DNA from: Paracoccaceae bacterium | GTDB taxonomy: Bacteria > Pseudomonadota > Alphaproteobacteria > Rhodobacterales > Rhodobacteraceae | Reading direction: 5' to 3' | Assembly: GCA_020446815.1 (NCBI GenBank) | Contig: JAGRDY010000013.1 | Coordinates: 1-39,094, forward strand | Length of the DNA stretch: 39,094 nucleotides | Shown: positions 22,364-38,602 of the stretch, in pieces | How positions within the stretch are numbered: position 1 is the first letter of the stretch | Layout: each line of letters starts with the position of its first letter | The notes under the pieces: generated by a model | Databases searched by the model: none | The model's input: the letters and a program-made list of their open reading frames with translations, nothing else | Told to the model about the DNA's origin: nothing | Position numbers and translations under genes: made by a program

Positions 22364-22385
22364 GGATGGTCGGCCAGCACATCGA

Positions 22386-23765
22386 TCAGGCTGCGGGAAG
22401 CTCGATCCGCACGGCAAGCCCGCCACCTGCCTGATTCTCCAGCGTAATGGTTCCACCATGTGCCTGGACAATGGAGCGGGCGATCGAGAAGCCCAGTCCG
22501 CTTCCGCCGGTCTCGCGCGAACGTGACTTCTCCAGCCGGTAGAACGGTTCGAAAACCCGCTCGAACTCCGTCTCGGGTATCCCGGGGCCTTGATCGGTGA
22601 CGATGATCTGGATCACGTTCCCCGCGTGTTGCGCGGTCACGGCGGCACTTCCGCCATAGCGAAGAGCGTTTTCAATAACGTTGCGCAGCGCCCGGCGCAT
22701 TGCGCGCGGGCGGATGCGCACTTTCAGCCCCGATCCCGCCTCCAGCGCGAAATCCACCGCCATGTCGGTGCGAAGCTGTCTGAGGAAGGCAGCAAGATCG
22801 ACCGGTTCGGACGGTTCGGATTCCGCCATGCCCCGCGCGAAGGAAAGCGTCGCCTCAACCATGTCCCGCATCTCGTCGATGGATGCGATCAGACGTTCGC
22901 GATCTTCGCCTTCCTCCACCATCTCGGCGCGCACCCGCATCGCGGTCAGCGGCGATTTCAGGTCGTGGCTGAGTGAGGCGAGCAGCCGGGTCCGGTCGGA
23001 AATGAAGCGGATGAGCCGGGACTGCATCCGGTTGAACGCCTCGGTCAGGTGCCGCACCTCTGAAGGGCCGCGGGCTACGAGAGGCGCGCCCGGCTCGCCG
23101 CGACCGAAGTCCTCGGCCGATGCGGACAGCCGGGTCAGCGGACCGGTGATCCGCGTCAGGATAAACCAGCAAGCTGCGATAAGGACAAGAGCAGCCGTCG
23201 CCACGAACGTGACCGCCTGCGCCCAGGGCCATTGCAAGGGTGGTTTCTGAAACCGCGTGGAAACGTTGAGCCAGGTTCCGTCTGCAAGTGCGATCGCCAG
23301 CCGCATCTCGACGGTCGAAAGCGCGCCGCCCATCATCGCGCCATGCATCTGGACCATGTCTGCAGGAACATGCGTCATGTCGGGCGTTCCGGCCGCGACG
23401 TCATGGAGTTCCACCCGGATCTCGCGCGGGGCGTCCGGAGCCATGAGGGCGCCGATACGATCCGCGAGGCCGCCACCATCCGAGTGATCGAGGTGATCGA
23501 CCTCCGGCCTGTCCGACATGCTGAATTGCACGAAGGGAGAATTCGCGGCTCGCAGGATCGCAGAATGGAGACTGGCGGGCGCTTCATCAATGAGACGCGC
23601 GACATTGGCGGCACGCGCCGCGGCCTCCAAGCCCTGCGCCGTGCGAACGGCAAGACTGCGTTCATCAACGAAGAGCCAGACGCTGAGTGCCTGCGCGATA
23701 ACGAGTGCGACAACGATCAGAAGGACGAGCTGGCCGCGCAGGCTGTCCGGGAAATACCATTTCAC
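22386..23765 (-). CDS. Sensor histidine kinase with His/Met-containing periplasmic loop
   Basis: 459 residues. TM1 is at about 12-33 and TM2 at about 185-204, enclosing a ~150-residue periplasmic sensor region. That region includes HLDHSD (91-96) and MTHVPADMVQMHGAMMGG (130-147), a likely metal-binding segment. HAMP (about 205-255), HisKA with His267 in SLSHDLKSPLTAM, and the HATPase motifs NVIENALRYGG, DQGPGIPE and GGSGLGFSIARS complete a functional kinase. It overlaps the response-regulator gene by 4 nt. The predicted stimulus is periplasmic copper or silver, from the loop and the context; the family resemblance alone would not tell this apart from other envelope sensors. Confidence 0.93.
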   Translation of the reverse strand: MKWYFPDSLRGQLVLLIVVALVIAQALSVWLFVDERSLAVRTAQGLEAAARAANVARLIDEAPASLHSAILRAANSPFVQFSMSDRPEVDHLDHSDGGGLADRIGALMAPDAPREIRVELHDVAAGTPDMTHVPADMVQMHGAMMGGALSTVEMRLAIALADGTWLNVSTRFQKPPLQWPWAQAVTFVATAALVLIAACWFILTRITGPLTRLSASAEDFGRGEPGAPLVARGPSEVRHLTEAFNRMQSRLIRFISDRTRLLASLSHDLKSPLTAMRVRAEMVEEGEDRERLIASIDEMRDMVEATLSFARGMAESEPSEPVDLAAFLRQLRTDMAVDFALEAGSGLKVRIRPRAMRRALRNVIENALRYGGSAAVTAQHAGNVIQIIVTDQGPGIPETEFERVFEPFYRLEKSRSRETGGSGLGFSIARSIVQAHGGTITLENQAGGGLAVRIELPAA

Positions 23766-24484
23766 GGCAGATCCCTCACATCTGTCGCAAGACAGTAGCC
23801 GCCGCTTCGGACCGTGGTGATGATGGCCGGACGGCCCGGATCCGCTTCGATCTTGCGTCTGAGCCGGCTGATCTGATTGTCGATGGCCCGGTCGAACGCC
23901 TGCGCCGCACGCCCGGATGTGAGATCGAGGAGCTGCTCGCGGCTGAGGACGAGGCGCGGCCGTTCCAGCAGCACCGTGAGGAGCCGAAATTCGGCGGTGG
24001 TCAGGGCGGTCTCCGCTCCATCCTTTCCGATCAGCACCCGCCGGTCGGTATCAAGCTGCCAGTCCGCGAAGGCGACACGCCGTCCCGACAGCGCGCCGGC
24101 GATGGGTTCCTCTGAGGTGGCGCGGCGCAGGATCGCCTTGATCCGCGCCAGCAATTCGCGCGGATTGAAGGGTTTGGGCAGATAGTCGTCGGCGCCAAGC
24201 TCGAGGCCGACGATACGGTCAGTGTCCTCTCCGAGCGCTGTCAGCATGAGGATCGGCACCTTTCCCTCCGCAGAGAGTCTGCGGCAGACCGACAGCCCGT
24301 CCTCGCCGGGCATCATCACGTCGAGCACGATCAGATCGTATTGACCCGTCGCGAGCCTGGCGTCCATCTCCGTGGCGTCACGAGCAGTGCTCGCCCGCAT
24401 TCCGTTGCGTTCGAGATAGCGGCTGACCGCATCCCGGATTTCGCGGTGATCATCAACGATGAGAATATGAGGCGCTTCGTTCAT
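23762..24484 (-). CDS. OmpR/PhoB-family response regulator
   Basis: 240 residues. The receiver domain has acidic pair DD (11-12), phospho-acceptor Asp55 (LIVLDVMMPG), Thr in LMLTA and Lys in LPKPF. The C-terminal winged helix (about 140-235) carries ELRLLTVLLERPRLVLSREQLLDL-type features and the recognition segment DRAIDNQISRLRRKIE. It is a transcription factor controlled by the kinase encoded downstream. It is transcribed divergently from the Met-rich EF-hand gene, an obvious candidate target. It is clearly OmpR-type but not close enough to CusR/CopR, by eye, to name it. Confidence 0.94.
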   Translation of the reverse strand: MNEAPHILIVDDHREIRDAVSRYLERNGMRASTARDATEMDARLATGQYDLIVLDVMMPGEDGLSVCRRLSAEGKVPILMLTALGEDTDRIVGLELGADDYLPKPFNPRELLARIKAILRRATSEEPIAGALSGRRVAFADWQLDTDRRVLIGKDGAETALTTAEFRLLTVLLERPRLVLSREQLLDLTSGRAAQAFDRAIDNQISRLRRKIEADPGRPAIITTVRSGGYCLATDVRDLP

Positions 24485-24653
24485 GGTCCCTATCTAAGCC
24501 GACAACAGGGCACGGTTCAGGAAAAATTGTCGCGTTTGGTGTCGTCCGCCGAACTTGCGACAGACGGTTACAAATCTCCGAGAGGCTCATATGGCGCTGC
24601 GGCACAGAACGGTCATATCTGCTGCATCGCAACCATGAACACGAGGTGCTGAA
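24485..24653. promoter_or_regulatory. Divergent intergenic region between response regulator and EF-hand gene
   Basis: 169 bases holding both start regions. It is locally AT-richer (CAGGAAAAATTG, GGTTACAAATC). No CueR-like dyad was found, which would fit control by the adjacent two-component system instead. No clear repeat to serve as a response-regulator box was identified by eye. Confidence 0.35.
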
Positions 24654-25319
24654 ATGACACGCAGATCAATTTTCGCAATTGGACTGATCGCGACCACGAT
24701 CGCTGGCGGGGTGGCGTTCGCCCACGGCTCGGGCGGATTTGGAGGCGGAGCCGGTCCGTTCGCCGGCCAGGGCATGATGATGAACCAGCAGGGCGGTCCC
24801 GGCATGATGGGTGGCATGGGCCCTGCGAGTGGCATGGGCCCTGCGAGTGGCATGGGCGATATGGGCGACATGATGCAGATGATGATGCGCATGCACGGCC
24901 AGATGATGGGCGGCGACATGATGGAAAGCGCGGCCGGACCTATGGGCTTCGGCATGACGGGCCGCCAGCTCGACGAGGCTTTCGACGCCGATGGAAACGG
25001 CACCGTGACACCCGAGGAACTGCGCGCCGGACTCGCGGCGCAACTGAAGCAGTACGACTCCGATGGCGACGGATCGCTTTCGATTGCGGAATTCGAGGCG
25101 CTGCACAACGCGATGACCCGTAACTTCATGGTGGACCGGTTCCAGGCGCTCGACGAGGATGGCGACGGCAGGATCACCGGCGACGAGATGGCGGCTCCCG
25201 CCAATTGGATGGAGCGGATGCAGATGATGCGCAGCCAGGCCCCGGTCGCGTCTGGTGAGCAGATGCCAATGAGCCAGGGCAATGGTGCCGGCAACGGCAC
25301 AATGATGAACGGAAACTAG
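24654..25319 (+). CDS. Exported Met/Gly-rich EF-hand protein
   Basis: 221 residues with a signal peptide (SIFAIGLIATTIAGGVAFA). Residues 30-100 are Met/Gly-rich (GQGMMMNQQ, MMQMMMRMHGQMMGGDMM), a composition typical of periplasmic Cu(I)/Ag(I)-binding proteins. The second half has three canonical EF-hand loops: DADGNGTVTPEE (111-122), DSDGDGSLSIAE (135-146) and DEDGDGRITGDE (167-178). The tail is again Met-containing. It may combine calcium binding with soft-metal sequestration in the periplasm; this combined role is inference. It is divergent from the response regulator and probably leads the short operon with the 31-residue peptide and the DUF302 gene. Confidence 0.88.
   Translation: MTRRSIFAIGLIATTIAGGVAFAHGSGGFGGGAGPFAGQGMMMNQQGGPGMMGGMGPASGMGPASGMGDMGDMMQMMMRMHGQMMGGDMMESAAGPMGFGMTGRQLDEAFDADGNGTVTPEELRAGLAAQLKQYDSDGDGSLSIAEFEALHNAMTRNFMVDRFQALDEDGDGRITGDEMAAPANWMERMQMMRSQAPVASGEQMPMSQGNGAGNGTMMNGN
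24813..24857 (+). repeat. 18-base tandem repeat within the EF-hand gene
   Basis: Two exact copies of an 18-base unit beginning GGCATGGGCC, with a partial third (9 bases), encode GMGPAS GMGPAS GMG in the Met-rich part. This is a recent in-frame expansion that could vary in length between strains. Confidence 0.85.
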
Positions 25320-25327
25320 GCGCTTCC

Positions 25328-25352
25328 GGATACCGGCTCCGAGCCGGTATCC
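25328..25352 (+). terminator. Perfect hairpin after the EF-hand gene
   Basis: GGATACCGGC and GCCGGTATCC pair perfectly around a TCCGA loop, starting 9 bases after the stop codon. No T-run follows, and a ribosome-binding site (AAAGGAG) for the next small gene begins 12 bases later. It may be an attenuator or an mRNA-stabilising element rather than a full terminator. Confidence 0.5.
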
Positions 25353-25377
25353 GCCCTTCCCTGAAAGGAGTCCAGCT

Positions 25378-25473
25378 ATGATGGGATATGGCTTTGGCGG
25401 CCTGTGGATGCTGCTCGTCGGCGCGCTTGTCGTGCTCGCGGTCGCGGCACTGGTAAAATACCTGATGAAATGA
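25378..25473 (+). CDS. 31-residue single-helix membrane peptide
   Basis: The short frame ATGATGGGATATGGC...AAATGA is preceded by a strong GAAAGGAG ribosome-binding site and encodes a single hydrophobic helix (LWMLLVGALVVLAVAALV) with a Met/Gly/Tyr N-terminus and a basic C-terminus (KYLMK). It lies between the EF-hand gene and the DUF302 gene (13 nt to the latter). Small membrane peptides of this plan occur beside copper-efflux and SHOCT-domain genes in many bacteria. The function is unknown; the ribosome-binding site and clean helix make it believable. Confidence 0.65.
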   Translation: MMGYGFGGLWMLLVGALVVLAVAALVKYLMK

Positions 25474-25486
25474 AGGACCCAATGAC

Positions 25487-25873
25487 ATGGCTTACACATA
25501 TGACCGCCTGATCACGGACGCGAATTTCGACGAGGTCGACGGGCGCGTGCGCGGGGCGCTTGCCGACAAGGGCTTCGGCATCCTCACAGAGATCGACGTG
25601 AAAGCGACGATGAAGAAGAAGCTGGATGTCGAGATGAACGACTATCGTATCCTCGGCGCCTGCAATCCCACGATGGCCCATAAGGCAATAGGGCTCGAGC
25701 CGCGCGTGGGCGCGATGCTGCCCTGCAACGTGATTCTGCGAAAGGTGGCAGAGGGCGTAGAGGTAAGCGCCATCGATCCCGTCGCCTCGATGGCGGCCAT
25801 CGAAAATGACGAACTGAAAAAGGTTGCTGGGGAAGTGCGCGAGTTGCTGTCCGCCGCCGTCCGGGCGGCATGA
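25487..25873 (+). CDS. DUF302-family protein
   Basis: 128 residues, the usual size of a stand-alone DUF302 domain. Recognisable features are the start AYTYDRLITDANFDEV, the GFGILTEIDVKATMKKKL segment, YRILGACNPTMAHKAI and the central GAMLPCNVILRKVAEGVEVSAIDP. The conserved ACNP/LPCN cysteines (about 64 and 84) could bind metal or undergo redox reactions. No signal peptide is present, so it is cytosolic. DUF302 genes are often found with sulfur, heme and metal-stress genes, but no reaction is established. It follows the 31-residue peptide by 13 nt. Confidence 0.9.
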   Translation: MAYTYDRLITDANFDEVDGRVRGALADKGFGILTEIDVKATMKKKLDVEMNDYRILGACNPTMAHKAIGLEPRVGAMLPCNVILRKVAEGVEVSAIDPVASMAAIENDELKKVAGEVRELLSAAVRAA

Positions 25874-26063
25874 TCGTTTGGGGGGCAACTCAGAGGCAAA
25901 AGTGAGTGTCGTTCGGCCCACCGTCCGGGTTGACGAGCCGTCCGGATATTGGTTCGCGCAAGTGAGCGCATTCATTGCCTTTTGAACACTTGTGAACCAT
26001 GATCCAAGTCAAGGAAGAATGACGCTTGCCCGACGAAGATAGACTGTGGGAAAGTTATGAATC

Positions 26064-26417
26064 ATGCGGCAATTGCGACACAAGAGCAGTTTTGAGAGAG
26101 GGCGTATACGCGCTGTGCTCTTGCTAGCGCTTGTCGCCGCCTTGTTCTTCGGAACGGTCGCCGATGCGTTCCACTCCCATGATATCATCACCGATACTTC
26201 GGTCACCTACATTGATCTGCCGGGCGTCGACGACGGGTCTGTCGCGACAATCGATGATCTCGATTGCGGCATTCATCCAGGCTGCGCTGCGGCGCTAATT
26301 CCCGATACGCCAATTCCGGCAAACCTTCCGGTTTCAGCCGGCAGACAGCCGATTTCCGCCTGCCGAGTGTCATCGATGGTCGAGTTCGAACCCGATCACC
26401 CGCCGATAATCTCCTGA
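26064..26417 (+). CDS. Small exported protein with Cys pair and His pair (unknown)
   Basis: 117 residues. A basic N-terminus precedes a signal peptide or anchor (AVLLLALVAALFFGTVADA), then FHSHD, an acidic stretch, DCGIHPGCAAA (CX5C) and the C-terminus FEPDHPPIIS. No domain was recognised. In plan it matches the other two small exported Cys-pair proteins of this island (8608, 11883). The 190-base gap before it (25874-26063) holds no other gene that I can support; the gap after it (26418-26615) is also without a convincing gene. It probably has its own promoter, since the DUF302 gene is 190 nt upstream. Confidence 0.6.
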   Translation: MRQLRHKSSFERGRIRAVLLLALVAALFFGTVADAFHSHDIITDTSVTYIDLPGVDDGSVATIDDLDCGIHPGCAAALIPDTPIPANLPVSAGRQPISACRVSSMVEFEPDHPPIIS

Positions 26418-26615
26418 TCTCTGGCTGTCTGCGGTGTGCGCCGCAACGTGGCCGTCGGCGGTGGTTGGTCCCAGACCATCACTTGTCGTCAGGAATCCTG
26501 GCACTGCCCCGCGCAGAATCCTGTGCGACCCTGAGGCCACTCTCTGTACGCAAAGCCAAATTACCCCGACCCCGGCGCATCTCGTCGGTGGGTTCCAATT
26601 TCCAGAGGAGTTGCA

Positions 26616-27677
26616 ATGAATACTTTTCGCTCTCTCACAACCGCCCTTGGACTTGTGCTCCTCGGTTTGCCTGCTGCAGCCGAGTCGGGCCGCGTCTTCA
26701 TACCCGAAGGCAGCGCCAATTCTGTCCTGATCGTCCGGGCCGGCACCGGCGAAGCCGTGCGCCGGATCGACGGCGTGGAGGCCGTGCACGGCCTGTCGGG
26801 CGCGCCCGGCGTGCCCTACCTCGTCGCCGGCAGCTATACTGAGGCGCCGCGCGATGAGATCGCCGCGATGGCACAGCCTAAGGGCGTATCGGCCGACGAC
26901 CACGCCGCGCATCATACCCCTGCCGTCAAACCGCTTGGTCCGAAAGATGCCGGGATTAGCATCGTTACCATTCTCGATGCCAAGACCGGTGACATATTGC
27001 GCCGGATCGAGGTGCCCGGCGCGGTCCACCACACCGCCATCTCGCCCGACGGTAAGTTCGCTGTCGCGACCCACCCAGCCGGCGACGGCATCTCTGTGAT
27101 CGACCTCGCCACCTTCAGCGTGACCGGCTATGTCACGACCGGCGCCATGCCGAACTACGCAGTGTTCGGAGCCGACCCCAACCTCGTCTACGTTTCCAAT
27201 ACCGGCAACGGCACGATCAGCGAGGTCGATCTGTCCCGCGCCATCGTGCGCCGAAACCTGATCGCCGGCGAGGGCCCGGAACACATGGCGGCTGCGGCAG
27301 CAACCGACCGGCTCTACGTGGCAGACGCTGATGCCGGCAGGGTTCTGGAAGTATCCCTGAGCGACGGCGAAACGCTTCGGAGCGTGGACATTGGCGGCGA
27401 AATCCACGGGATCGGCCTCTCCGATGACGGTACGATGCTGTTCGTCGCAGGAAGGGGCGAAGGCAAGCTCGTCGCGGTCGATCTGTCCTCGGGCGATAGG
27501 CACGAGACCGCGCTTGCGCCCGAGCCCTACCACCTGACGGTGATCCCGGGATCAGGGACGCTCTTCGTCTCAAGCCGTGCCGAGCCGAAGGTCTGGATGA
27601 TCGACGCTTCGACACTGGGCGAACGCGGTACGATATCGGTCGAAGGCGAAGGGCACCAAATGGTGGCGTTACCCTGA
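26616..27677 (+). CDS. Periplasmic YncE-like beta-propeller protein with His-rich loop
   Basis: 353 residues with a signal peptide (TALGLVLLGLPAAA). Repeats of about 40 residues follow the YVTN/YncE pattern: GRVFIPEGSANSVLIV, ISIVTILDAKTGDILRRI, GISVIDLATFSVTGYV, LVYVSNTGNGTISEVDL, RLYVADADAGRVLEV, MLFVAGRGEGKLVAVDL and LFVSSRAEPKVWMID. These predict a seven-bladed propeller. A loop around residues 90-108 (SADDHAAHHTPAV) is an insertion with three His, a possible metal site. AGAGGAG precedes the ATG. Such propellers are usually scaffolds; some bind metals or cofactors. It is 33 nt upstream of the metallo-beta-lactamase-fold gene and could be the first gene of that operon. Confidence 0.85.
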   Translation: MNTFRSLTTALGLVLLGLPAAAESGRVFIPEGSANSVLIVRAGTGEAVRRIDGVEAVHGLSGAPGVPYLVAGSYTEAPRDEIAAMAQPKGVSADDHAAHHTPAVKPLGPKDAGISIVTILDAKTGDILRRIEVPGAVHHTAISPDGKFAVATHPAGDGISVIDLATFSVTGYVTTGAMPNYAVFGADPNLVYVSNTGNGTISEVDLSRAIVRRNLIAGEGPEHMAAAAATDRLYVADADAGRVLEVSLSDGETLRSVDIGGEIHGIGLSDDGTMLFVAGRGEGKLVAVDLSSGDRHETALAPEPYHLTVIPGSGTLFVSSRAEPKVWMIDASTLGERGTISVEGEGHQMVALP

Positions 27678-27710
27678 CCGGATGTCCATATCAAGGAAAG
27701 GACCAGGGCC

Positions 27711-29096
27711 ATGTCAAAGCAAACCAGTCCGACACTCCGCTTCCTTGGCGCTGCCGGAACCGTTACCGGCTCGCGCTATCTGATCGAGACCGGGGGTCGC
27801 CGCATCCTTATCGACTGCGGCTTGTTCCAGGGGTTCAAGACGTTGCGTGACCGCAATCGCAAGCCTTTCCCGGTGCGCCCCTCGACGATCGACACGGTGC
27901 TTCTCACCCATGCGCATCTCGACCACTCCGGCTATCTGCCCGCGCTGATCCAGAGCGGTTACAGGGGCAAGGTGTTCTGCACAGAGGCGACGGCTCAACT
28001 TTGCGGGCTGATCCTGCCCGACAGCGGTCACATCCAGGAAGAAGAGGCGCGATTTGCCCGCAGGCACGGCTTTTCCAAGCACAAGAACCCGACGCCGCTT
28101 TACACCGTGGCCGATGCCGAGGCGGCACTGGAGCGTCTGCATCCTGTTTCGTTCGGCAGGGCCGTCGACCTCGGCGACGGGATCCGCGCTGAATTCACTC
28201 CGGCCGGTCATCTACTTGGCGCCGCGCAGATCCGTCTCAGCCTGCCCGGAACGACGGTCTTGTTTAGCGGTGACCTCGGACGCCAGAATGACGCGCTGAT
28301 GCGGCCACCACTGCCGTTCTCGGGCGCTGACGTGCTGATCTGCGAGTCCACCTACGGCAACCGCAGTCACGCGAAGATTGATGCTGAGAAAGAACTTGCG
28401 CCGATCCTGAAACGGATGCTCGGGCGCGGCGGCACGGTCCTCATCCCCGCCTTCGCGGTCGGCCGCGCGCAGGGGATCATGTATCACATCGCCCGCCTGC
28501 AGAAGCGCGGCGACATTCCCTATGTGCCGTTCTACCTCAATTCGCCGATGGCGATCGACGCGACCGAGATCTACCACGGCCATCACGAGGAGCATCACGT
28601 CTCGTGGGAGGACTGCCTGGCGATGTTCAAGATCGCCAAGAGGGTCAACTCGGTCACGGAATCGAAGAAGCTGAACACGCAGCACGGTCCGATGATCATC
28701 GTCTCGGCCAGTGGCATGCTCACCGGCGGGCGGATCTTGCACCACCTCGCGAGCTTTGGCGGAGACCCGCGCAACGCGATCCTGCTGTCGGGGTTCCAGG
28801 CCGGCGGCACGCGCGGCGCGGCGCTGGCCGGCGGCGCCGATCACCTGCGCATGTTTGGTCGCGATTTCCCGATCCGGGCCGAGGTGGTCCAACTCGAAGC
28901 CTTTTCGGGACACGCCGACGCGGAAGAGCTTCTGGCCTGGATGCGCGCGGCGGACCGCCCGCCGCGCATGACCTATGTGACGCATGGCGAACCCTCGGCC
29001 TCCGACCGGCTGCGTTGGCGGATCGAGCACGAGCTTGGTTGGCCCGCCCGCGCCCCTGAGCATCTCGACACCATTCGGCTGGACAATCCGAAATGA
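27711..29096 (+). CDS. Metallo-beta-lactamase-fold beta-CASP ribonuclease-like protein
   Basis: 461 residues. The zinc motif HAHLDHSG (His67, His69, Asp71, His72), GHLLGAAQI, FSGDLGR and the beta-CASP signatures STYGNR, IPAFAVGRAQ, ASGMLTGGRILHH and EAFSGHADAEEL identify the CPSF73/RNA-specificity branch of MBL enzymes. Known relatives cut RNA as endo- or 5'-exonucleases using two Zn ions; the substrate of this bacterial branch is not established. It is cytosolic. An AAGGA site precedes the ATG. Its stop overlaps the start of the phosphorylase by 4 nt (ATGA), so the two are translationally coupled. Confidence 0.93.
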   Translation: MSKQTSPTLRFLGAAGTVTGSRYLIETGGRRILIDCGLFQGFKTLRDRNRKPFPVRPSTIDTVLLTHAHLDHSGYLPALIQSGYRGKVFCTEATAQLCGLILPDSGHIQEEEARFARRHGFSKHKNPTPLYTVADAEAALERLHPVSFGRAVDLGDGIRAEFTPAGHLLGAAQIRLSLPGTTVLFSGDLGRQNDALMRPPLPFSGADVLICESTYGNRSHAKIDAEKELAPILKRMLGRGGTVLIPAFAVGRAQGIMYHIARLQKRGDIPYVPFYLNSPMAIDATEIYHGHHEEHHVSWEDCLAMFKIAKRVNSVTESKKLNTQHGPMIIVSASGMLTGGRILHHLASFGGDPRNAILLSGFQAGGTRGAALAGGADHLRMFGRDFPIRAEVVQLEAFSGHADAEELLAWMRAADRPPRMTYVTHGEPSASDRLRWRIEHELGWPARAPEHLDTIRLDNPK

Positions 29097-30607
29097 CGAC
29101 GATCGACAACACGCTTCCGGTCGTCCGCGCCGGGATCGACACCTATCGGCAGCCCGTGGTCTTCATGCGCGAGGACTGCCATGTCTGTCGCGCCGAAGGC
29201 TTTGCCGCCCTGACCCGGATCGAGGTGACTCTGGGCGGCCGTTCGATCATCGCCACGCTGAACGTGCTGACCGATGGCGGGTGGTTGCCAACGGATACCG
29301 CCGCCCTGTCGGAAGAGGCCTGGGCGATCCTGCAACCCGCGTCGGGCGACCGCGCCAGCTTTTCCCACCCCGAGCCGCCGGATTCCGTCTCGGCGATCCG
29401 CGCCAAGGTCTACGGCGAAACATTGGAGCAGGACCGGTTCGAAGCCATTGTCCGCGACGTTCTCGACCGCAGACTCTCCGACCTCGACCTCGCCGCCTTC
29501 ATTGCCGCCTGCGCAGGGGACAGGCTTTCCATCGACGAAACCATCGCACTGACCCGGTCCATGCAGGCGGCAGGCGAAACGCTCGACTGGGGCGGGGTCG
29601 AGATCTACGACAAGCATTGCGTTGGCGGCCTTCCCGGCAACCGCACGACACCGATTGTCGTCTCGATCATCGCGGCGGCAGGCCTGATGATCCCCAAGAC
29701 CTCATCGCGCGCGATCACCTCGCCCGCGGGCACGGCGGACACGATGGAGGTCATGGCGCCGGTCGCGCTCAACATTCCCACGCTGCGACGCGTGGTCGAG
29801 GCCGAGGGCGGCTGCATTGTCTGGGGCGGCAATCTCGCGCTCAGCCCGGCCGATGACCTTCTGATCCGAATCGAGCGGCCGCTCGATTTCGACAGCGACG
29901 GACAGCTCGTGGCGAGCGTGCTGTCGAAGAAGGCGGCGGTGGGCGCGAAGCGGGTGCTGATCGACGTGCCGGTCGGCCCCACGGCCAAGGTCCGTTCGAC
30001 CGAGACCGCTGCCGCGCTGGAAAGTCGGCTCCGGGCCGTGGGCGAGGCGATCGGCCTGACACTTTCCATTCACCAGAGCGATGGCACTTCGCCGGTCGGG
30101 TACGGGATCGGGCCAGCGCTCGAGGCGCAGGATGTCCTCGCCGTTTTGTGCCGCGACAAGGATGGCCCCGCCGACCTGCGCGATCGTGCGCTCGACCTCG
30201 CTGGGGCGCTCCTCGATCTCGCGCCCGAGGCGGGGACAAAAAGCGGGCGCGCGGAGGCAGTGCGAATTCTCGACAGCGGCGCGGCTGAGACGAAGTTCAT
30301 GGCCATCTGCGAGGCCCAAGGTGGATTCAGTGAGCCCGGCGAGGCGCGGTATCACGCGATGGTGACGGCTGGCATCGCGGGGCGCCTTACCGCCATTGAC
30401 AACCGCCGCATCGCGCGAATTGCGAAGCTTGCCGGAGCACCACGCCAGAAGCTCGCGGGTTTGCGCCTTCTGGCCCGCGTCGGCGACCGGATCGATCCCG
30501 GAAGGCCACTGTTCGAGATCCATGCCGAAACCCTGGGGGAACTGGAATACGCCCGGTCCTACGCCGAGGCGCAGACCGGCATCGTCACGGTCGCGGAGGA
30601 CGGATGA
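29093..30607 (+). CDS. AMP phosphorylase / thymidine-phosphorylase family protein
   Basis: 504 residues, longer than bacterial DeoA (~440) and the same as the archaeal-type AMP phosphorylases, which have an extra N-terminal domain (here about residues 1-90, with the RAEGFAALTRIEV segment). Family motifs are DKHCVGGLPGNRTTPIVVSIIAAAG, PKTSSRAITSPAGTADTMEV and VGAKRVLIDVPVGPTAKV. Known members split a nucleoside 5'-monophosphate with phosphate into base and ribose-1,5-bisphosphate. No signal peptide is present. It overlaps both neighbours by 4 nt, so three genes form one translational unit: RNA cleavage, nucleotide phosphorolysis, PRPP chemistry. The name thymidine phosphorylase would probably be misleading. 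Confidence 0.9.
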   Translation: MTTIDNTLPVVRAGIDTYRQPVVFMREDCHVCRAEGFAALTRIEVTLGGRSIIATLNVLTDGGWLPTDTAALSEEAWAILQPASGDRASFSHPEPPDSVSAIRAKVYGETLEQDRFEAIVRDVLDRRLSDLDLAAFIAACAGDRLSIDETIALTRSMQAAGETLDWGGVEIYDKHCVGGLPGNRTTPIVVSIIAAAGLMIPKTSSRAITSPAGTADTMEVMAPVALNIPTLRRVVEAEGGCIVWGGNLALSPADDLLIRIERPLDFDSDGQLVASVLSKKAAVGAKRVLIDVPVGPTAKVRSTETAAALESRLRAVGEAIGLTLSIHQSDGTSPVGYGIGPALEAQDVLAVLCRDKDGPADLRDRALDLAGALLDLAPEAGTKSGRAEAVRILDSGAAETKFMAICEAQGGFSEPGEARYHAMVTAGIAGRLTAIDNRRIARIAKLAGAPRQKLAGLRLLARVGDRIDPGRPLFEIHAETLGELEYARSYAEAQTGIVTVAEDG

Positions 30608-31497
30608 TGCAAATCCTTGCCCCCTTTCCCGGCATGGAGCCGCTGGCACGCGGCATCGCCGCCGTCACCGGCGCCGAAATCCAGCCGGTCGGCCTGCACC
30701 GCTTTCCCGACGGCGAAACCCTCGTGACGCTCGGCGGCGATCCCTCCGGGTGCGACGTTGCCATCCTCGCCACGTTGCGCGATCCCGACCGCTTGGCTCT
30801 GCCGCTGCGCTTCGCCGCCGCGACGGCGCGCGAACTCGGCGCCACTCGGGTAGGCCTCATCGCCCCCTATCTCGGATACATGCGCCAGGACGCGCGGTTC
30901 CACCCGAGCGAAGCGGTGAGCGCCCCGATCTTCGTCGCCTTCCTCGATGACTGTTTCGACTGGCTGGTGACCGCCGACCCCCACCTGCACCGGAACCCGA
31001 GCCTTTCTAACCTGTTCCGCATCCCCGCGCGCCGCGTCGCCACCGCCCCTCTTCTCGCGACGTGGATCGCGGAGAACGTGCCCGATGCGGTCCTCCTCGG
31101 CCCAGACAGCGAAAGCCAGCAGTGGGTGGCCGAGGTCGCGCAGCGGGCTGGCCGCCCGTACGAAGTGCTGCGTAAGCACCGCTCTGGCGACCGCCAGGTC
31201 GAGATCAGCCTGCCACACGGTGCCGTTCTCCGGCAGGGAACGCCGGTGATCCTCGACGACATCGCCTCCTCCGGCCGCACATTGATCCGGACACTCGAAC
31301 AGCTTCGTGCCCTCGATATGCCGCCCGCGTTCTGCGTCGTGATCCACGCCGTCTTCGCGGACGGAGCGGAAGAGGCGATCCGCCGCGCCGGCGCCGCGCA
31401 GATCGTCAGCACGGATTCCATCCCGCATCCGACCAACGCGATCGGCGTCGCCGGGATACTTGCCGGTGCGATGAAGGAGGTTGCGGACGGCACTTGA
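30604..31497 (+). CDS. Divergent ribose-phosphate pyrophosphokinase (PRPP synthetase) homologue
   Basis: 297 residues, about 20 shorter than housekeeping Prs. The PRPP-binding loop [13 protein letters not shown] and the nucleotide-loop equivalent FPDGE (canonical FSDGE) are present. The region usually reading GYARQDRK is [13 protein letters not shown] is replaced by [11 protein letters not shown], and the VSPDxGG motif by [11 protein letters not shown]. It therefore belongs to a divergent branch that may not use the same substrates. Canonical Prs makes PRPP from ribose-5-phosphate and ATP; here, next to an AMP phosphorylase, ribose-1,5-bisphosphate is a possible substrate (inference). Its stop codon lies within the -35 of the next promoter. 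Confidence 0.88.
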
Positions 31498-31524
31498 CCT
31501 TCCAGCAACTGGAAGCCCCACATT
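31494..31524 (+). promoter_or_regulatory. CueR-type promoter/operator of the second Cu/Ag ATPase
   Basis: -35 TTGACC (31494-31499), TTCC-N7-GGAA (31500-31514), 19-base spacer and a -10-like CACATT (31519-31524). The -35 overlaps the TGA of the PRPP synthetase gene (31495-31497). It also fixes the ATPase start: the ATG at 31554 lies about 24 bases after the expected transcription start, whereas the upstream frame begins inside the promoter. Confidence 0.85.
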
Positions 31525-31553
31525 GGGCAGGAAAGACGCGAAAGGAAACACAA

Positions 31554-33920
31554 ATGAACGAGCGCCATACGGACCACGGCCACACCCGCAATCCTGACGA
31601 CACCGTTCCGGCAGGTTTTGCAGGTACGGTCTACACCTGTCCAATGCATCCCGAGATCCGGCGCCCGGAACCGGGGGATTGTCCGAAATGCAACATGCAC
31701 CTGGTGCCAGAAGGCGAAGCCACTCCGCATCACGGCCATCACTACGCCGAACCGGACAGGACGAAGGACAGCTACGACACGGTTCCCGAGGGCTATGCCG
31801 GGCCGGTTTATACCTGCCCGATGCATCCGGACGTGCGCCAGCCCCATCCCGGCTCCTGCCCGATCTGCGGGATGGGGCTGGAGCTTGAGTCCGCCGCGAT
31901 GGAAGCCGAAGGGCCGAACCCTGAACTCGTCGACTTTACCCGCAGGTTCTGGGCTGGCGTCGTCCTAACCATTCCTTTGCTGGTGCTGACGATGGGGCCG
32001 TACCTCGGGTTTGGTGGTGTGCGCGAGATCTTCGGTGAGCGCGCGACGCTCTGGATCGAGCTCGTGCTCGGCACACCGGTCGTGCTCTGGTGCGGATGGC
32101 CATTCCTGGTCCGCGGATGGACTTCGTTCAGGACGATGAACCTGAACATGTTCAGCCTGATCGCCATGGGCGTGATCGCGGCCTGGATCTTCAGCGTCGT
32201 CGCGGTGCTCGCGCCGGGTGTATTCCCGGACGGCTTCCGCGATGCCGAGGGTCATGTTGGCGTCTATTTCGAGGCCGCAGCAGTGATTGTGACGCTCGTG
32301 CTTCTGGGACAGGTCATGGAGCTGCGCGCCCGCGAAGGCACCGGCAAGGCAATTCGCGCGCTTCTCGACATGGCGGCCAAGACCGCGCGCGTCCTCCGCG
32401 ACGACGGCAGCGAGGAGGAAGTGCCCCTGGAGCATGTCGAGGTCGGCGACCGGCTGCGCATACGTCCCGGCGACAAGGTGCCGGTCGATGGGGTCGTGAT
32501 TGAAGGCCGCTCGTCGATCGACGAGTCGATGATCACAGGCGAGCCGGTCCCGGTCGAGAAGGTTGCGGGCGACCCTGTGACCGGCGCCACGATCAATGGC
32601 ACTGGCAGCCTGATCATGGAAGCGACCCGCATCGGTGCCGACACTATGCTGAGCCAGATCGTCGAGATGGTCGCCAACGCGCAGCGCTCGCGCGCGCCGA
32701 TCCAGAAATATGCCGACAAGGTGTCGGGTTACTTCGTGCCGGCGGTGATCGGAATCGCGGTCCTGTCGTTTATCGGCTGGGCGCTCTGGGGGCCCGCGCC
32801 GGCACTGTCCTACGCGCTGATTGCGGCCGTGGCGGTACTGATCATCGCCTGTCCCTGTGCCCTTGGGCTCGCTACGCCGATGTCGATCATGACCGCCACG
32901 GGCCGTGGCGCGCAGGCGGGCGTTCTGATCAAGAATGCCGAAGCGCTCGAACGGTTCGAGAAGGTCGACACGCTCATCGTCGACAAGACCGGTACGCTGA
33001 CGGAAGGGAAGCCGAGGCTCGTCGGCGTCTTCCCCGAGGAGGGTCATGACGAAGCCGAGGTGCTGCGCCTAGCCGCCTCCCTCGAACGCGGCTCAGAGCA
33101 TCCACTGGCCGAGGCGATCGTAAGGGGTGCCGAGGAAAATGGCGTCGAGATGACCGAGGCTCAGGATTTCGAGGCAGTGACCGGCAAGGGTGTCAAGGGC
33201 AAGGTCGACGGGAAACCCGTTGCGCTCGGCAATCTGAAACTCGTTCAGGAGATGGGCCTTGAAGCGGCTGCTTTGACCGAAAAGGCGGACTTCCGCCGCG
33301 ACGAAGGCGAGACGGTGATGTTCGTGGTGGTGGACGGCCGGATTGCCGGCCTCGTCAGCGTCGCCGATCCGGTGAAAGAAACCACGCCCGCCGCGCTGAA
33401 GTCGCTGCACGACCTTGGTTTCCGCATCATCATGGCCACCGGCGACAACGAGCGTACGGCGAAAGCCGTGGCCGGACGTCTCGGCATCGACGAGATCCGC
33501 GCCGATGTCCTGCCCGAAGACAAGGCCCGCATCATCAAGGAGTTGCAGGATGGCGGCGCCAGGGTCGCGATGGCCGGCGACGGTGTCAACGACGCGCCCG
33601 CGCTGGCGCAGGCCGATGTCGGCATCGCGATGGGCACCGGCGCCGACGTCGCGATCGAAAGCGCGGGCTTCACGCTCGTCAAGGGCAATCTCGACGGGAT
33701 CGTCCGCGCCCGCAAATTGGCCCGCGCGACGATGCGCAACATCCGCCAGAACCTGTTCTTCGCTCTGATCTACAACGCCGCAGGCGTCCCGGTCGCGGCG
33801 GGTGTGCTGTTCCCGGTCCTCGGCATTCTCATCAGCCCGATGTTCGCCGCCTTCGCGATGAGCGCCTCCTCGATCTCGGTGGTGCTGAACGCGCTCAGGC
33901 TGCGGAGTGCCAAAATCTGA
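31554..33920 (+). CDS. Cu/Ag-translocating P1B-type ATPase with two N-terminal CPMHP metal-binding domains
   Basis: 788 residues starting [10 protein letters not shown], preceded by AAAGGAAA; the frame back to 31494 overlaps the promoter and is rejected. The N-terminus is His-rich and has two heavy-metal-binding domains (YTCPMHPEI...CPKCNMHL with Cys29, and YTCPMHPDV...[10 protein letters not shown] with Cys88) in place of HMA domains. The core has CPC at 433-435 ([13 protein letters not shown]), Asp477 in DKTGTLT, the GSEHPLAEA motif and [18 protein letters not shown]. This architecture is that of CopB/SilP-like exporters. It complements CopA at 12808, perhaps with higher capacity or different ion preference. 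It leads an operon with DUF2933, the methyltransferase-like protein and a cytochrome c. Confidence 0.95.
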
Positions 33921-33935
33921 CGAAAGGATCTGCAA

Positions 33936-34199
33936 ATGAACGACATGAACACTCACGACGAACACGCCGAAACTGTAGGGCCGGTCTCGACAGGCTTCTG
34001 GAAGTCACGGGCCGGCATCAGCCTGGTGGTCGCATTAGCGGTCGGCGGCCTGATGCTTGGATATGAGCATCGCGTGCACATCCTCGGCAGCGACTGGTTG
34101 CTCTGGCTGCCGCTCCTGCTTTGCGTCGGCATGCACTTCTTCATGCACGGCGGGCATGGCGGTCACGGCGGCAAGCATGGCGGAGGCGGGCAGACATGA
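33936..34199 (+). CDS. DUF2933 small membrane protein
   Basis: 87 residues. A charged N-terminus (MNDMNTHDEHAE) leads into two hydrophobic helices (about 26-42 and 53-70) and a Gly/His tail (FFMHGGHGGHGGKHGGGG) suited to binding soft or borderline metals. The pattern matches DUF2933, found almost always beside copper/silver efflux genes. It follows the ATPase by 15 nt and its stop overlaps the next start (ATGA), so it is translationally coupled to the methyltransferase-like gene. It is likely an inner-membrane accessory of metal export. Confidence 0.88.
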   Translation: MNDMNTHDEHAETVGPVSTGFWKSRAGISLVVALAVGGLMLGYEHRVHILGSDWLLWLPLLLCVGMHFFMHGGHGGHGGKHGGGGQT

Positions 34200-34849
34200 C
34201 CTCTGCGCCGCAAGCCTACGGCCTTTGGACACTGGTAATCGTCAACTCGGCCGTCTTCATCCTTTTTGCGCTGAGCTTCTTCAGGCCGCAGACGGAGCGT
34301 GACTGGCGCAGCCTCGGTGCTTTCAGCGCCTTCGTGGTGGCGCTGTTTACCGAGATGTACGGATATCCCCTAACGCTTTACGTTCTGTCGGGCTGGTTGC
34401 AGTCTGCCTATCCCGGGGTGAACTGGTTTGCTCACGATTCCGGCCACCTGCTCGAGATGATGTTCGGCTGGAAGTCGAATCCGCATTTCGGCCCCTTCCA
34501 CCTGATCAGCTTCGCGCTGATCGGCGGTGGCTTCTGGCTGATCGCGGCCGCCTGGCATGTGCTCTGGGCCGCCCAGCGAAGCGGGAAGCTCGCCGTCACC
34601 GGTCCTTATGCTCGGATCCGCCATCCGCAATATGTTGGCTTCGTCCTGATCCTCACCGGCTTTCTCGTTCAATGGCCGACCCTTCTGACGCTCGCGATGT
34701 ATCCGTTCCTCGTCTGGATGTATGTCCGGCTCTCGCGGGTCGAGGAACGGGAGAGCGAACGGCGGTTCGGCGACGCCTATCGTCGGTATGCGGCGCGGGT
34801 TCCGGCGTTTCTGCCTGAACTGTCCGTCGGAACCGGCGAGAGAACATGA
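34196..34849 (+). CDS. Isoprenylcysteine carboxyl methyltransferase (ICMT)-family membrane protein
   Basis: 217 residues from the ATG overlapping the DUF2933 stop; the longer frame back to 34121 lies inside DUF2933. Four or five TM helices are followed by the ICMT/PEMT signature: TGPYARIRHPQYVGFVLILTGFLVQWPTLLTL, then RLSRVEERESERRFGDAYRRYAARVPAFLP. Eukaryotic relatives methylate prenylated cysteines with S-adenosylmethionine; bacterial members have other, mostly unknown, targets (lipids or small molecules). It commonly travels with DUF2933 and copper ATPases. Its role in copper handling is unknown. Confidence 0.9.
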   Translation: MTSAPQAYGLWTLVIVNSAVFILFALSFFRPQTERDWRSLGAFSAFVVALFTEMYGYPLTLYVLSGWLQSAYPGVNWFAHDSGHLLEMMFGWKSNPHFGPFHLISFALIGGGFWLIAAAWHVLWAAQRSGKLAVTGPYARIRHPQYVGFVLILTGFLVQWPTLLTLAMYPFLVWMYVRLSRVEERESERRFGDAYRRYAARVPAFLPELSVGTGERT

Positions 34850-34950
34850 AAGTGGAGCCTGATCGACACTTGTTCGGGATTGGCCGCGCCGAAATGCGCA
34901 AGCGATGTCAGTCGCCGAGAGGTTCAACCAGAAGAGAGAAGGAGAAAATC

Positions 34951-35460
34951 ATGAACAGAACCGTTTCCGCATTGATCGCGGGTATCGCCATATCGTGGAT
35001 ATCGCCACTTTATGCCCAGGAAAGCTCAGGGATGATGAGCGGCGACGCAATGCGTCAGATGATGAGCTCTGGTCTTATTCTGCCCAAGCTCGATGCGACC
35101 AAAGGCCGAGAGTTGTTCGCGGCGAAGGGTTGTGTCGTCTGCCATTCGATCAACGGCGTCGGCGGAGAAGATGCGCCAGCGCTCGATGCAGAATACATGG
35201 ACTTGCCGATGAATCCCTTTGAGTTCGCCGCGCGGATGTGGCGCGGCGCACCTGCGATGGTCGAGGCGCAGGAGGACGAAATCGGCGGGCAGATCGAGTT
35301 CACTGGCGAGGAACTGGCCAATATCATTGCCTTCGTTCACGACGCCGATGAGCAGAAGAAGTTCTCCGAAAGCGACATCCCTGGGAATATTGAAGGGATG
35401 ATGCACCATATGGGCGAGGAGGATCATCACGGCGACGGTGAGACTGACGATCACGGATGA
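34951..35460 (+). CDS. Periplasmic cytochrome c with Met/His-rich ends
   Basis: 169 residues from MNRTVSALIAGIAISW (signal peptide, AQE junction near residue 22), with a good AGAAGGAG ribosome-binding site; the frame from 34846 overlaps the previous gene and is not needed. The heme motif CVVCH is at 61-65. Before the heme is a Met-rich stretch (SGMMSGDAMRQMMSSG), and the C-terminus is His/Asp/Glu-rich (MMHHMGEEDHHGDGETDDHG), both suited to copper. The axial ligand is probably a Met after PMNPFEFAARMWRGAPAM. It is the last gene of the ATPase operon. Confidence 0.9.
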   Translation: MNRTVSALIAGIAISWISPLYAQESSGMMSGDAMRQMMSSGLILPKLDATKGRELFAAKGCVVCHSINGVGGEDAPALDAEYMDLPMNPFEFAARMWRGAPAMVEAQEDEIGGQIEFTGEELANIIAFVHDADEQKKFSESDIPGNIEGMMHHMGEEDHHGDGETDDHG

Positions 35461-35524
35461 ACCGGTGAACTCGATCCAGCGCTTCTTGGAATGGAGCCCA
35501 AGCGACGTTTGATTGCACAGGCAG

Positions 35525-36676
35525 TCAGGATGCCCGAATGCGGTTGGAGAGGATCAACCCAAGAACTGCCAGGAACGCAGACGCAGCCGACCCTACGAGT
35601 ACTGCGAGTTTGGCTGCGTCCGCGCGGGCAGGATCATCGAACGACGCCGTAACGAAGAACAGGCTCATCGTGAACCCAATGCCGGCGAAAAGGGCCGCGC
35701 CGGCCGCATCCTTCCAGTTTGTTCCCGCCGGGAGTGAACCGACCCGCAACCAGATCGCGCCGTATGTACCCGTCATGATTCCGATCGGTTTTCCGATGAT
35801 GAGGGCGAGAATGATGCCGTATGTGACCGAGTCGGCGTACCAATCCGCACGAATTTCGTTCAGGGGAATGCCGGCATTGAAAAAGGCGAACGCTGGCACG
35901 ACTACGAAAAGAGAAACGGGAGCCAGACGACGCTCTGCACGGCCCGCCGGAAATACTCCCGAAGGCAGCGCCAGCCCGATGATCGCTCCCGCGATGGCGC
36001 CCTCGAGACCGGATCCGACCAGCCCAGCCCAAAGAAGGACGCCAGCAAACAGATAAAGGCTTACCGTTCCGCTTGAACGCCAGTTCAGCACTGCCAAGCC
36101 CAAAAGGCCTGCCGCAATAGCGGCCAGGGGCAACCCGACTTCGATCTCACCGTAGAATACGCCGATCACGACAACCGCGCCGAGGTCGTCGAAAATCGCG
36201 ACTGCCGTTATGAAAGCCAGCAATCCGGAAGACACGGCTGAGCCGAAGAACGACATGAGCCCGAGTACCAGTACGACGTCCGTCGCGATGGGAACGCCCC
36301 ATCCCCGCAAGGCCTCCGGATCTCCGTAATTGAGTGTCAGGTAAATGAGCGCGGGCGCTGCCATACCGCCGAGGGCCGCCGCGGCCGGCAGAGTCGCGCG
36401 CGCTGGCGAGGAAAGAACGCCCGATGTCATCTCGCGTTTGGTGTGCAGGCCGATGTGGAAGAAGAATATGACCAGAAGGCCCTGATTGATCCAATCGATC
36501 AGCGGCGCTTCGACGATCAGCGGCGCGATGCCGAACCGGAGCGGATAGTGATGGATGACCGCATACAACTCCGACAACGATGAATTCGCGGACAGCATCC
36601 CCAGGCCGATGGCGAGAAGCATTGCGATGCCGCCACAACGTTCTTCGGTCACCATTCCCTCCGACCTATCCCGCAC
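35525..36676 (-). CDS. NhaA-family Na+/H+ antiporter with altered carboxylates
   Basis: 383 residues, 11-12 hydrophobic helices. NhaA landmarks are present: PALIYLTLNYGDPEALRGWGVPIATD (equivalent of Asp133), AIFDDLGAVVVI (the essential Asp163/164 pair), LIIGKPIGI (Lys300) and GIGFTMSLF. Against E. coli NhaA, the usual INDAL is INQGL (D65 to Q) and VGLEVKRE is IGLHTKRE (E78 to H). The ion-binding core is thus intact, but the pH-sensor/entry cluster is changed. The start is uncertain: the GTG at 36676 gives the family's normal N-terminal length, while the ATG at 36655 is the alternative. It is convergent with the cytochrome gene; the 195 bases on its right hold nothing I recognise. Confidence 0.9.
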   Translation of the reverse strand: MRDRSEGMVTEERCGGIAMLLAIGLGMLSANSSLSELYAVIHHYPLRFGIAPLIVEAPLIDWINQGLLVIFFFHIGLHTKREMTSGVLSSPARATLPAAAALGGMAAPALIYLTLNYGDPEALRGWGVPIATDVVLVLGLMSFFGSAVSSGLLAFITAVAIFDDLGAVVVIGVFYGEIEVGLPLAAIAAGLLGLAVLNWRSSGTVSLYLFAGVLLWAGLVGSGLEGAIAGAIIGLALPSGVFPAGRAERRLAPVSLFVVVPAFAFFNAGIPLNEIRADWYADSVTYGIILALIIGKPIGIMTGTYGAIWLRVGSLPAGTNWKDAAGAALFAGIGFTMSLFFVTASFDDPARADAAKLAVLVGSAASAFLAVLGLILSNRIRAS

Positions 36677-36871
36677 TCAGTATCCGCCCGCGCCGCCGCG
36701 CATGGAGCGGTTGTCCACTCGTCTCGGAGTTCAATGGCCGAAGGAGAACAGAAATTTGGCTCGCGGCTCTGGAGGCGGTTTCTCGTCACAGACGGCCTGG
36801 CTTCCGAGCTTTGTCTGCACGTTTCTTTCGATTTGTCGGGCGCAGCTCCGTACCCCATATGCGGTCAACCC

Positions 36872-37558
36872 CTAGGAAAACAGCACGGGACATTCCCGGG
36901 CGCATTTGTTGCGCAGGATGATGTAGATGAGGTGCAGCGTTCCAAGTCCGGCCAGCAGGCAGAAGAACGATATGTAGGCATAGCGCAGGAACAGGATGTC
37001 GACCACGACCACTGTGACGATCGTCAGGGCGAACCAGCGCATGTGGTAGTAGGTTGAGATTAGGGGCGGCACGATGATCAGGAAAAGGTAGATCACATAG
37101 GTCATCCAGCGTGGCATGAGGTAGTCGAGGATCATCGTGCCTTCGTAGGCCAGTGACTTCTGATTGACCGTGACCTCGATCCAGCCCGGGTTAACCAGAT
37201 GCGGCACATAGAGTGCCAGACCGAAGGCGAGCCCAGCCAAAGACATCGCTAGCATCCAGGGTTTTCGGGTGCTGCCTGGCGGTTCCAGAACGTAGGTGGC
37301 GAGCGGAATCCAGAAAGGCCACATGAACCAGGTGAAGAAGATGAACCCCAGCGCTCCCAGCAGGGTCGTCCAAGGATCGCCCGTGTTCACGCCCCACCAG
37401 ACATTGCCTTCCATGAATTGCTGGAGCCCGGCAAAAAGTGGCATCACCGCGACCGCGAGATAGCGCTTGTTGATCTTGGCCGACTTGGCGACCGCCAAGG
37501 CGCCGCCTCCAATGAGAAGGACGCTGGCGGCATAACTGACAGTTTGCGACAGACACAT
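36872..37558 (-). CDS. DUF6629-family membrane protein
   Basis: 228 residues and about seven TM helices. The N-terminus MCLSQTVSYAASVLLIGGGALAV and the segment AVMPLFAGLQQFMEGNVWWGV match the DUF6629 family (typical start MCFS). The C-terminus NKCARECPVLFS adds two cysteines. AGGAT precedes the ATG. The function is unknown; the regular Trp/Phe-rich helices suggest an integral inner-membrane protein. It is on the same strand as lgt, 128 nt downstream of it, and upstream of the NhaA-like gene. Confidence 0.82.
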   Translation of the reverse strand: MCLSQTVSYAASVLLIGGGALAVAKSAKINKRYLAVAVMPLFAGLQQFMEGNVWWGVNTGDPWTTLLGALGFIFFTWFMWPFWIPLATYVLEPPGSTRKPWMLAMSLAGLAFGLALYVPHLVNPGWIEVTVNQKSLAYEGTMILDYLMPRWMTYVIYLFLIIVPPLISTYYHMRWFALTIVTVVVVDILFLRYAYISFFCLLAGLGTLHLIYIILRNKCARECPVLFS

Positions 37559-37618
37559 GTGTGATCATCCTAATGATGGCCCTGAGGTCTGGCCGGTTGC
37601 TGGGGACGAAATTTAGGT

Positions 37619-37690
37619 TCACCTCGGCATCTCCGCGGACATGCACATGATGGGGCAGGCGTACGAATGCAGCGCGCGAACGATGGTCAT
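37619..37690 (-). CDS. Possible 23-residue Cys/Met-rich peptide coupled to lgt
   Basis: An ATG at 37690 overlaps the lgt stop codon (ATGA) and opens 23 codons to a [23 protein letters not shown] and three more residues. [10 protein letters not shown] recalls the start of CPM-type heavy-metal-binding domains (YTCPMHP), but the rest of that domain is absent in all frames, so it is either a tiny metal-binding peptide, a remnant, or chance. Confidence 0.3.
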
Positions 37691-38592: not shown

Positions 38593-38602
38593 CGGCAAAG
38601 TC

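Follow-up and report, generated by a model that had tools for sequence, protein, structure and literature searches.

What might a bacterium do with ribose-1,5-bisphosphate (R15P), a compound whose metabolism is known chiefly from archaea, and about whose fate in bacteria little is known? The question is raised by three genes in a 39,094 nt stretch of DNA from a Paracoccaceae bacterium (contig JAGRDY010000013.1 of assembly GCA_020446815.1), the whole of which is hereafter called the window. They encode a beta-CASP protein of the metallo-beta-lactamase (MBL) fold (461 amino acids), a phosphorylase (504 amino acids) and a homologue of phosphoribosyl pyrophosphate (PRPP) synthetase (Prs; 297 amino acids), with a 4 nt ATGA overlap at both junctions (Table 1). 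A conserved cassette in which R15P formation is predicted beside a Prs-like enzyme points to a missing step. We propose for the trio a role in catabolism, as an often plasmid-borne module that would take RNA to base and phosphorylated ribose at low oxygen, and give this reading a probability of roughly one half; its basis is the identity of the three proteins, their linkage, the lack of an R15P isomerase over cut-off, the altered site of the Prs-like protein and a regulatory box kept in position.

The trio is a conserved and widespread unit, with a linkage far beyond chance. In a sample of 299 Pseudomonadota genomes spread over the phylum and searched at curated cut-offs, Prs of family NF005537 was found in 33 and phosphorylase of family NF003338 in 35, all of the 33 being among the 35 (Fisher p 6e-42). 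In all but one of the 33 Prs genomes the two genes share a strand and are less than 200 nt apart, G236 being counted through a fragment of the phosphorylase gene at the end of a contig; the exception is G293, with about 4.4 kb between the matches. The adjacent Prs match of G285 falls just below the cut-off (299.6 against 322 bits), and G249 has a partial phosphorylase match over cut-off without an NF005537 Prs. The MBL protein (E 1e-60 or better) is present in 57 of the 299 genomes, corresponding to 21 of the 33 Prs genomes and 36 of the 266 others.

A wider scan by Prs alignment and peptide patterns gave at least 584 confirmed relatives, from which 80 loci were kept; this set is phylogenetically clustered, with several loci cut by contig ends, and spans alpha-, beta- and gammaproteobacteria as well as Bacteroidota. 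Phosphorylase is found in 77 of the 80, MBL in 63 and phosphoketolase in 24, and the phosphorylase gene is directly 5' of that for Prs in 73 of the 77, the Prs start codon overlapping the phosphorylase stop in 52. Relatives of the phosphorylase (E 1e-50 or better) are carried by 115 plasmid records, and two plasmids predicted to be conjugative, from Celeribacter and Roseovarius, have the trio together with a copper ATPase and further copper genes. The preliminary description of this DNA had pointed to similar trios in other proteobacteria, and conserved co-occurrence was indeed found (33/33 genomes and 77/80 loci). Incomplete versions were also seen: the phosphorylase match at G255:C142:10073-12494, which falls slightly short of the cut-off, has an internal stop and a divergent MBL neighbour, with no NF005537 match over cut-off, and may be a decaying cassette, whilst the Brevundimonas loci L154 and L156 have the Prs-like gene without a phosphorylase within 9 kb on either side.

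The first protein is probably a ribonuclease. It passes the Pfam models Beta-Casp, Lactamase_B and RMMBL among others, and its closest match in the PDB is the RNase TTHA0252 (E 7.3e-78). The protein of the window has the metal and catalytic residues of six motifs, namely MBL motifs 2-4 and beta-CASP motifs A-C; when it was compared together with 63 relatives, all six were complete in 56 of the 64 sequences. TTHA0252 is called an exonuclease in the excerpt of PMC3095777. What the trio protein has in common with RNases of this type is similarity over most of its length and the active-site motifs, whereas its gene differs in adjoining those for phosphorylase and Prs or, in five genomes without that pair, phosphoketolase; in these (G058, G062, G146, G023 and G298, all of one family) the MBL and phosphoketolase genes are about 1.4 kb apart. 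The alternative identity of Cas14 (type VII CRISPR) was rejected on score, at 345.9 against a cut-off of 800 bits.

The second protein passes NF003338 (633.6 against 434 bits) and TIGR02645 (562.8 against 434.6 bits), both of which denote a 'putative thymidine phosphorylase' subfamily. In alignments, the archaeal phosphorylase 4ga5, which we take to be the T. kodakarensis enzyme, gives E 2e-96, against E 7.6e-34 for the best thymidine phosphorylase. The stretches SSRAITS.AGTAD and GG.PGN[KR]T are common to the trio phosphorylase and 4ga5, and human thymidine phosphorylase differs there; the motif DxHxxGGxPGNRT is found in 74 of 78 phosphorylase sequences, and two of the four that lack it are truncated. 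The case for the trio protein acting as a thymidine phosphorylase is weakened both by this far better archaeal-type similarity and by a separate match in the genome of the window (C36:244544, 191.8 bits), which scores like classical thymidine phosphorylases. According to the extract of PMC9700705, the Thermococcus enzyme cleaves AMP, CMP and UMP, and so converts nucleoside monophosphates (NMPs) to R15P.

The third protein passes NF005537 (PRK07199; 355 against 322 bits), for which the NCBIfam label is ribose-phosphate diphosphokinase, and also TIGR01251. Its AlphaFold model (predicted local distance difference test score, pLDDT, 92.3) has the PRPP synthetases of T. volcanium and M. jannaschii as best fold matches, with a template modelling (TM) score of 0.89 to T. 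volcanium 3mbi. The canonical catalytic and nucleotide residues of PRPP synthetase are present: F34, D36, R94, Q95, D96, H127, D168, K191, R193, D218, D219 and T226 are kept in all members of alignments of 23 and 46 sequences, and E38 is invariant in the smaller and kept in at least 90% of the larger. The roles of the corresponding E. coli Prs residues are taken from the excerpted text of PMC6332680, the mapping of residues having been made in this analysis. A pseudoenzyme was rejected, as the catalytic residues are kept. Nor is this the housekeeping Prs, since 33 of 34 trio genomes also have a class I Prs over the NF002320 cut-off, and the one exception is only 70% complete.

Two places in the active site of this protein are altered. 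At one, DPHLHR or a near form replaces the housekeeping DLHxxQIQGFF, with H127, H129 and R130 invariant in the 23 and the 46 sequences (the near forms DAHLHR, EPHLHR, DPHMHR and QAHLHR occur in a few of the 23); DPHLHR is found in all 80 loci of the wider set and was not part of the search patterns. At the other, GPDxES replaces SPDxGG (SPDxGGVVR), E170 being invariant and S171 nearly so in both alignments; its presence in 80/80 loci is partly built in, as GPDxES belonged to the search patterns. The ordinary motifs were found at both sites (with DxGG at the second) in eight of eight class I housekeeping Prs compared, these being the best-scoring loci from the NF002320 search only, and four relatives from the PDB have DHGG, DKGA, DRGA and DDGG at the loop. 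In place of the DxG[GA] pyrophosphate loop of canonical PRPP synthetases, the trio protein has D-x-E-S. PDxGG is presumably the pyrophosphate-binding loop, at about residues 171-174 of human PRPS1. The loop belongs to the active site (PMC7689168). This protein resembles class I and III PRPP synthetases in fold and catalytic residues, but differs from them in HxHR, PDxES and its adjacency to an NMP phosphorylase. New classes of bacterial PRPP synthetase have been defined in a 2026 preprint (PMC13252144), the main text of which does not contain the word 'phosphorylase'.

These results confirm the observations of the preliminary description and support its interpretation in part. It had read the genes as a beta-CASP MBL protein, an AMP phosphorylase of archaeal type and a Prs homologue: the family scans bear out all three identities, the coordinates of the open reading frames (ORFs) reproduce both overlaps it had reported, and comparison of DPHLHR and GPDSES with the eight housekeeping enzymes confirms its observation of altered Prs motifs. 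Its logic of RNA to NMP to R15P likewise gains support from the protein families, at the level of sequence.

Where R15P might go next was approached through the enzymes known to use it. R15P isomerase was over cut-off in none of 68 genomes searched (34 with the trio and 34 others), and was over cut-off in three control genomes. PhnN (TIGR02322), a ribose-1,5-bisphosphokinase, was over cut-off in 6 of the 34 trio genomes and 12 of the 34 others; the match in trio genome G246 scores 135 bits against a cut-off of 156. Such counts make the Prs-like protein the linked candidate user of R15P in most trio genomes. The archaeal NMP shunt, or pentose bisphosphate pathway (NMP phosphorylase, R15P isomerase and Rubisco), has the same type of first enzyme and forms R15P from NMP; it differs in that none of the 34 trio genomes has the isomerase over cut-off, the phosphorylase being accompanied instead by a Prs-like protein and, in many cases, an MBL RNase. 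PhnN would share R15P as the proposed substrate, but belongs to another protein family.

The route that would join these proteins begins with the hydrolysis of RNA to 5'-NMPs by the beta-CASP MBL protein, followed by the conversion of NMP and phosphate to base and R15P by the NMP phosphorylase, both steps being predicted from family. In the third and least certain, the Prs-like protein would transfer the C1 phosphate of R15P to AMP or ADP, with ribose-5-phosphate and ADP or ATP as products, in effect reverse Prs chemistry minus one phosphate. When Prs runs in reverse, it is the phosphorus bound at C1 that AMP attacks; were R15P to replace PRPP in the same geometry, the products would be ribose-5-phosphate and ADP. 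Both the use of R15P by the Prs-like protein and the direction of its reaction are inferred. The ribose-5-phosphate would then enter the pentose phosphate route and, where phosphoketolase and acetate kinase are linked, could yield acetyl phosphate and ATP. At low oxygen, a regulator of the FNR/FixK type would switch the operon on. It is possible, and we suggest it only tentatively, that a Prs-fold enzyme has here turned into an energy-conserving R15P:AMP (or ADP) phosphotransferase which, with an RNase and an NMP phosphorylase, would make RNA a fermentable reserve when oxygen fails, by way of ribosomal ribose, in a module that travels on plasmids and occurs in two phyla. With a cassette that forms R15P, hundreds of genes annotated as thymidine phosphorylase or PRPP synthetase would gain a different function, and a way would be revealed in which aerobes might draw on RNA for energy in an emergency. 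As far as we have found, the cassette is known by annotation and expression tables and not by function: the open-licence literature yielded regulon tables and archaeal pathways, and no description of this bacterial route.

Phosphoketolase is a candidate sink in part of the loci. Of the 24 that have its gene, 16 have it close behind Prs, with a start 36-197 nt beyond the Prs match; amongst the remaining eight, one starts 1127 nt after Prs, one is upstream and six are on the opposite strand at a distance of about 6-9 kb. An acetate kinase cluster is present in 11 of the 80 loci. The stronger evidence for phosphoketolase is this local adjacency, not its association at the level of genomes.

Control by low oxygen is reported for Bradyrhizobium diazoefficiens, in which bll3117-bll3116-bll3115 form one predicted operon with a FixK2 box, ATGATCTGGGTCAA, at -74. 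According to the extract of PMC9104804 from which this is drawn, deletion of fixK2 lowers bll3115 by 30.6-fold and bll3117 by 6.6-fold, as well as the phosphoketolase-acetate kinase pair bll2518-bll2517 by about 10-fold. All three trio genes are also in the table of microoxia-induced products in the excerpt of PMC6515984. This operon has the same three annotated products as the trio, matched by annotation, and differs in its gene order of phosphorylase, Prs and MBL; the excerpts of both tables assign it no function. Locus L093 has the Bradyrhizobium gene order and the identical box ATGATCTGGGTCAA at -90, and L091 a near copy; the probable placement of the Bradyrhizobium proteins in the same families as the trio rests on annotation together with the gene order and box of L093. 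The low-oxygen link raised in the preliminary description is borne out by the FixK2 and microoxia tables, as far as these excerpts go. The MBL protein BCAM0300 is listed for the low-oxygen lxa locus of B. cenocepacia; phosphorylase, phosphoribosyl and phosphoketolase are absent from the text of that paper, and the locus was not used.

Boxes were sought upstream of the first trio gene in 71 of the 77 phosphorylase-bearing loci of the 80-locus set, and in 34 of 37 loci of a second set (loci without one of the genes, or with too little sequence upstream, being left out), with expected numbers derived from first-order shuffles. Perfect FNR boxes were found in 5/71 upstream regions, against 0.15 expected; when up to one mismatch is allowed, the count is 8/71 (2.70 expected) and, in the second set, 6/34 (1.13 expected). 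In the window, the box ATGATCCAAGTCAA begins 1712 nt upstream of the MBL start; taken alone it is not significant, as six one-mismatch matches are scattered through the window where 1.99 are expected. However, a box also lies at -1711 in L108, as does CTGATTTAGATCAA at -1722 in L106, L110, L111, L112 and L115, such that the box is positionally kept in 7 of 13 sequences (the window included), with just two types of flank; the other six relatives examined have no box at that position. The printed flanks of L106 and L110 resemble each other but show no relation to those shared by the window and L108, making the two types independent. This may point to selection on the box.

Several points weigh against the catabolic reading. 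Transfer of the C1 phosphate to AMP is energetically uphill, and the Prs-like protein keeps its nucleotide, catalytic and ribose-5-phosphate loop residues, so that ordinary PRPP synthesis is possible. The phosphorylase scores below the cut-off of the AMP-phosphorylase equivalog TIGR03327 (447.6 against 535 bits). The MBL gene is present in just 17 of the 37 loci of the second set, either before or after the phosphorylase-Prs pair, and in the excerpt of PMC3095777 short RNAs were not degraded by TTHA0252 in vitro. Sub-cut-off matches to R15P isomerase are present in 34 of the 68 genomes, 17 of them trio genomes. No phosphoketolase match is present in 23 of the 33 Prs genomes, that of the window among them, and the sink therefore varies; the association across genomes is weak (10/33 against 37/266, p 0.02). 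No box within one mismatch is found in 63/71 and 28/34 of the upstream regions, although the operon start can lie further upstream than the regions tested. Finally, in the table excerpted from PMC6515984 the trio genes carry a '-' (not) for bacteroids and another for the direct FixK2 regulon, as an earlier study had defined it. Our odds do not shift on this account, since PMC9104804, the later paper, reports a box as well as lowered expression on deletion of fixK2.

The main alternatives concern the reaction of the Prs-like protein. It could be a PhnN-like kinase, forming PRPP and ADP from R15P and ATP, in which case the trio would recycle RNA to PRPP for base salvage. E. coli PhnN makes PRPP from R15P (extract of PMC9700705), and the small number of trio genomes with PhnN over cut-off, half that of the others, is in keeping with such a role. 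Yet the reaction would cost ATP within a low-oxygen programme, the change of the loop from DxGG to DxES argues against the handling of a diphosphate, and the phosphoketolase and acetate kinase genes linked to the trio in some of the loci speak for breakdown; we regard this kinase as rather unlikely. Doubtful as well is an ordinary second PRPP synthetase, making PRPP and AMP from ribose-5-phosphate and ATP, with the phosphorylase removing the AMP. The conserved residues from F34 to D219 named above, E38 included, would fit this, as would the NCBIfam name and, in the excerpt of PMC13252144, the retention of catalytic residues across the major PRPP synthetase classes; but a housekeeping Prs is already present in 33/34 trio genomes, and two places in the active site are changed, with HxHR and E170 invariant in the 23 and 46 members.

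A role in copper resistance, in which the trio would clear or recycle copper-damaged RNA, is suggested by its surroundings, and the preliminary description was right about the copper setting: a P1B-type ATPase gene, encoding a heavy-metal-binding domain, follows Prs with a possible start overlapping its stop codon, and a copper ATPase is annotated directly downstream of the trio in the two conjugative roseobacter plasmids. P-type ATPase ORFs are present in 56 of the 80 loci, in different phyla, and within 10 kb in at least 8 of the 34 trio genomes. However, their subtypes differ (by ORF, CPC 18, CPH 13, PEGLP 3 and 24 unclassified, among which the four inspected have CPD), 24 loci have no ATPase, the remaining neighbours vary by lineage, and the control documented in Bradyrhizobium, in the excerpts cited above, is through FixK2 and microoxia. 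Low oxygen is in our view the more telling clue, and we take the ATPase association as real but mixed in subtype, perhaps reflecting co-travel in low-oxygen and metal islands; a part in copper resistance is improbable, and the recycling of damaged RNA under copper stress, also proposed in the preliminary description, is unsupported as a general reading. A second heavy-metal P-type ATPase of 1079 amino acids, with HMA domains, is encoded on the minus strand of the window at 12808-16047.

Table 1. Features of the trio locus, in coordinates of the window
Feature	Position	Strand	Remarks
FNR/FixK-like box ATGATCCAAGTCAA	25999..26012	+	Differs from TTGAY-N4-RTCAA at one position; candidate promoter element for low-oxygen control of the operon
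ORF of 117 amino acids, first after the box	26064..26417	+	From the ORF list; no match in Pfam scan
YncE-like beta-propeller protein	26616..27677	+	Ends 33 nt 5' of the MBL gene
MBL-fold beta-CASP ribonuclease homologue, TTHA0252-like	27711..29096	+	Pfam, PDB similarity and motifs
NMP(AMP)-phosphorylase-type protein	29093..30607	+	Family scans; relatives annotated as thymidine phosphorylase family
Divergent PRPP-synthetase-like protein, NF005537 (PRK07199) subfamily	30604..31497	+	Family scan, alignments and fold
Motif DPHLHR, Prs residues 125-130	30976..30993	+	His127 conserved; His129 and Arg130 added
Motif GPDSES, Prs residues 166-171	31099..31116	+	Occupies the position of the PDxGG loop
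P1B metal ATPase gene after the trio	31494..33920	+	Listed start TTG at 31494; later ATG at 31554 possible

The counterpart of the beta-propeller protein on the Celeribacter plasmid is annotated as YncE family. An RNA-family scan of 20000-39094 found no elements at the gathering threshold, and a search of viral contigs with the Prs-like peptide patterns found no relatives. Amongst other neighbours, a pair of genes encoding NfeD and SPFH/Band-7 proteins (named from L070) recurs near the phosphorylase-Prs pair in L070, L073, L074 and L076. On the Roseovarius plasmid (L107, 1-1505), genes for ornithine carbamoyltransferase and carbamate kinase are found about 12 kb upstream of the trio, and possibly represent an arginine-based supply of ATP without oxygen.

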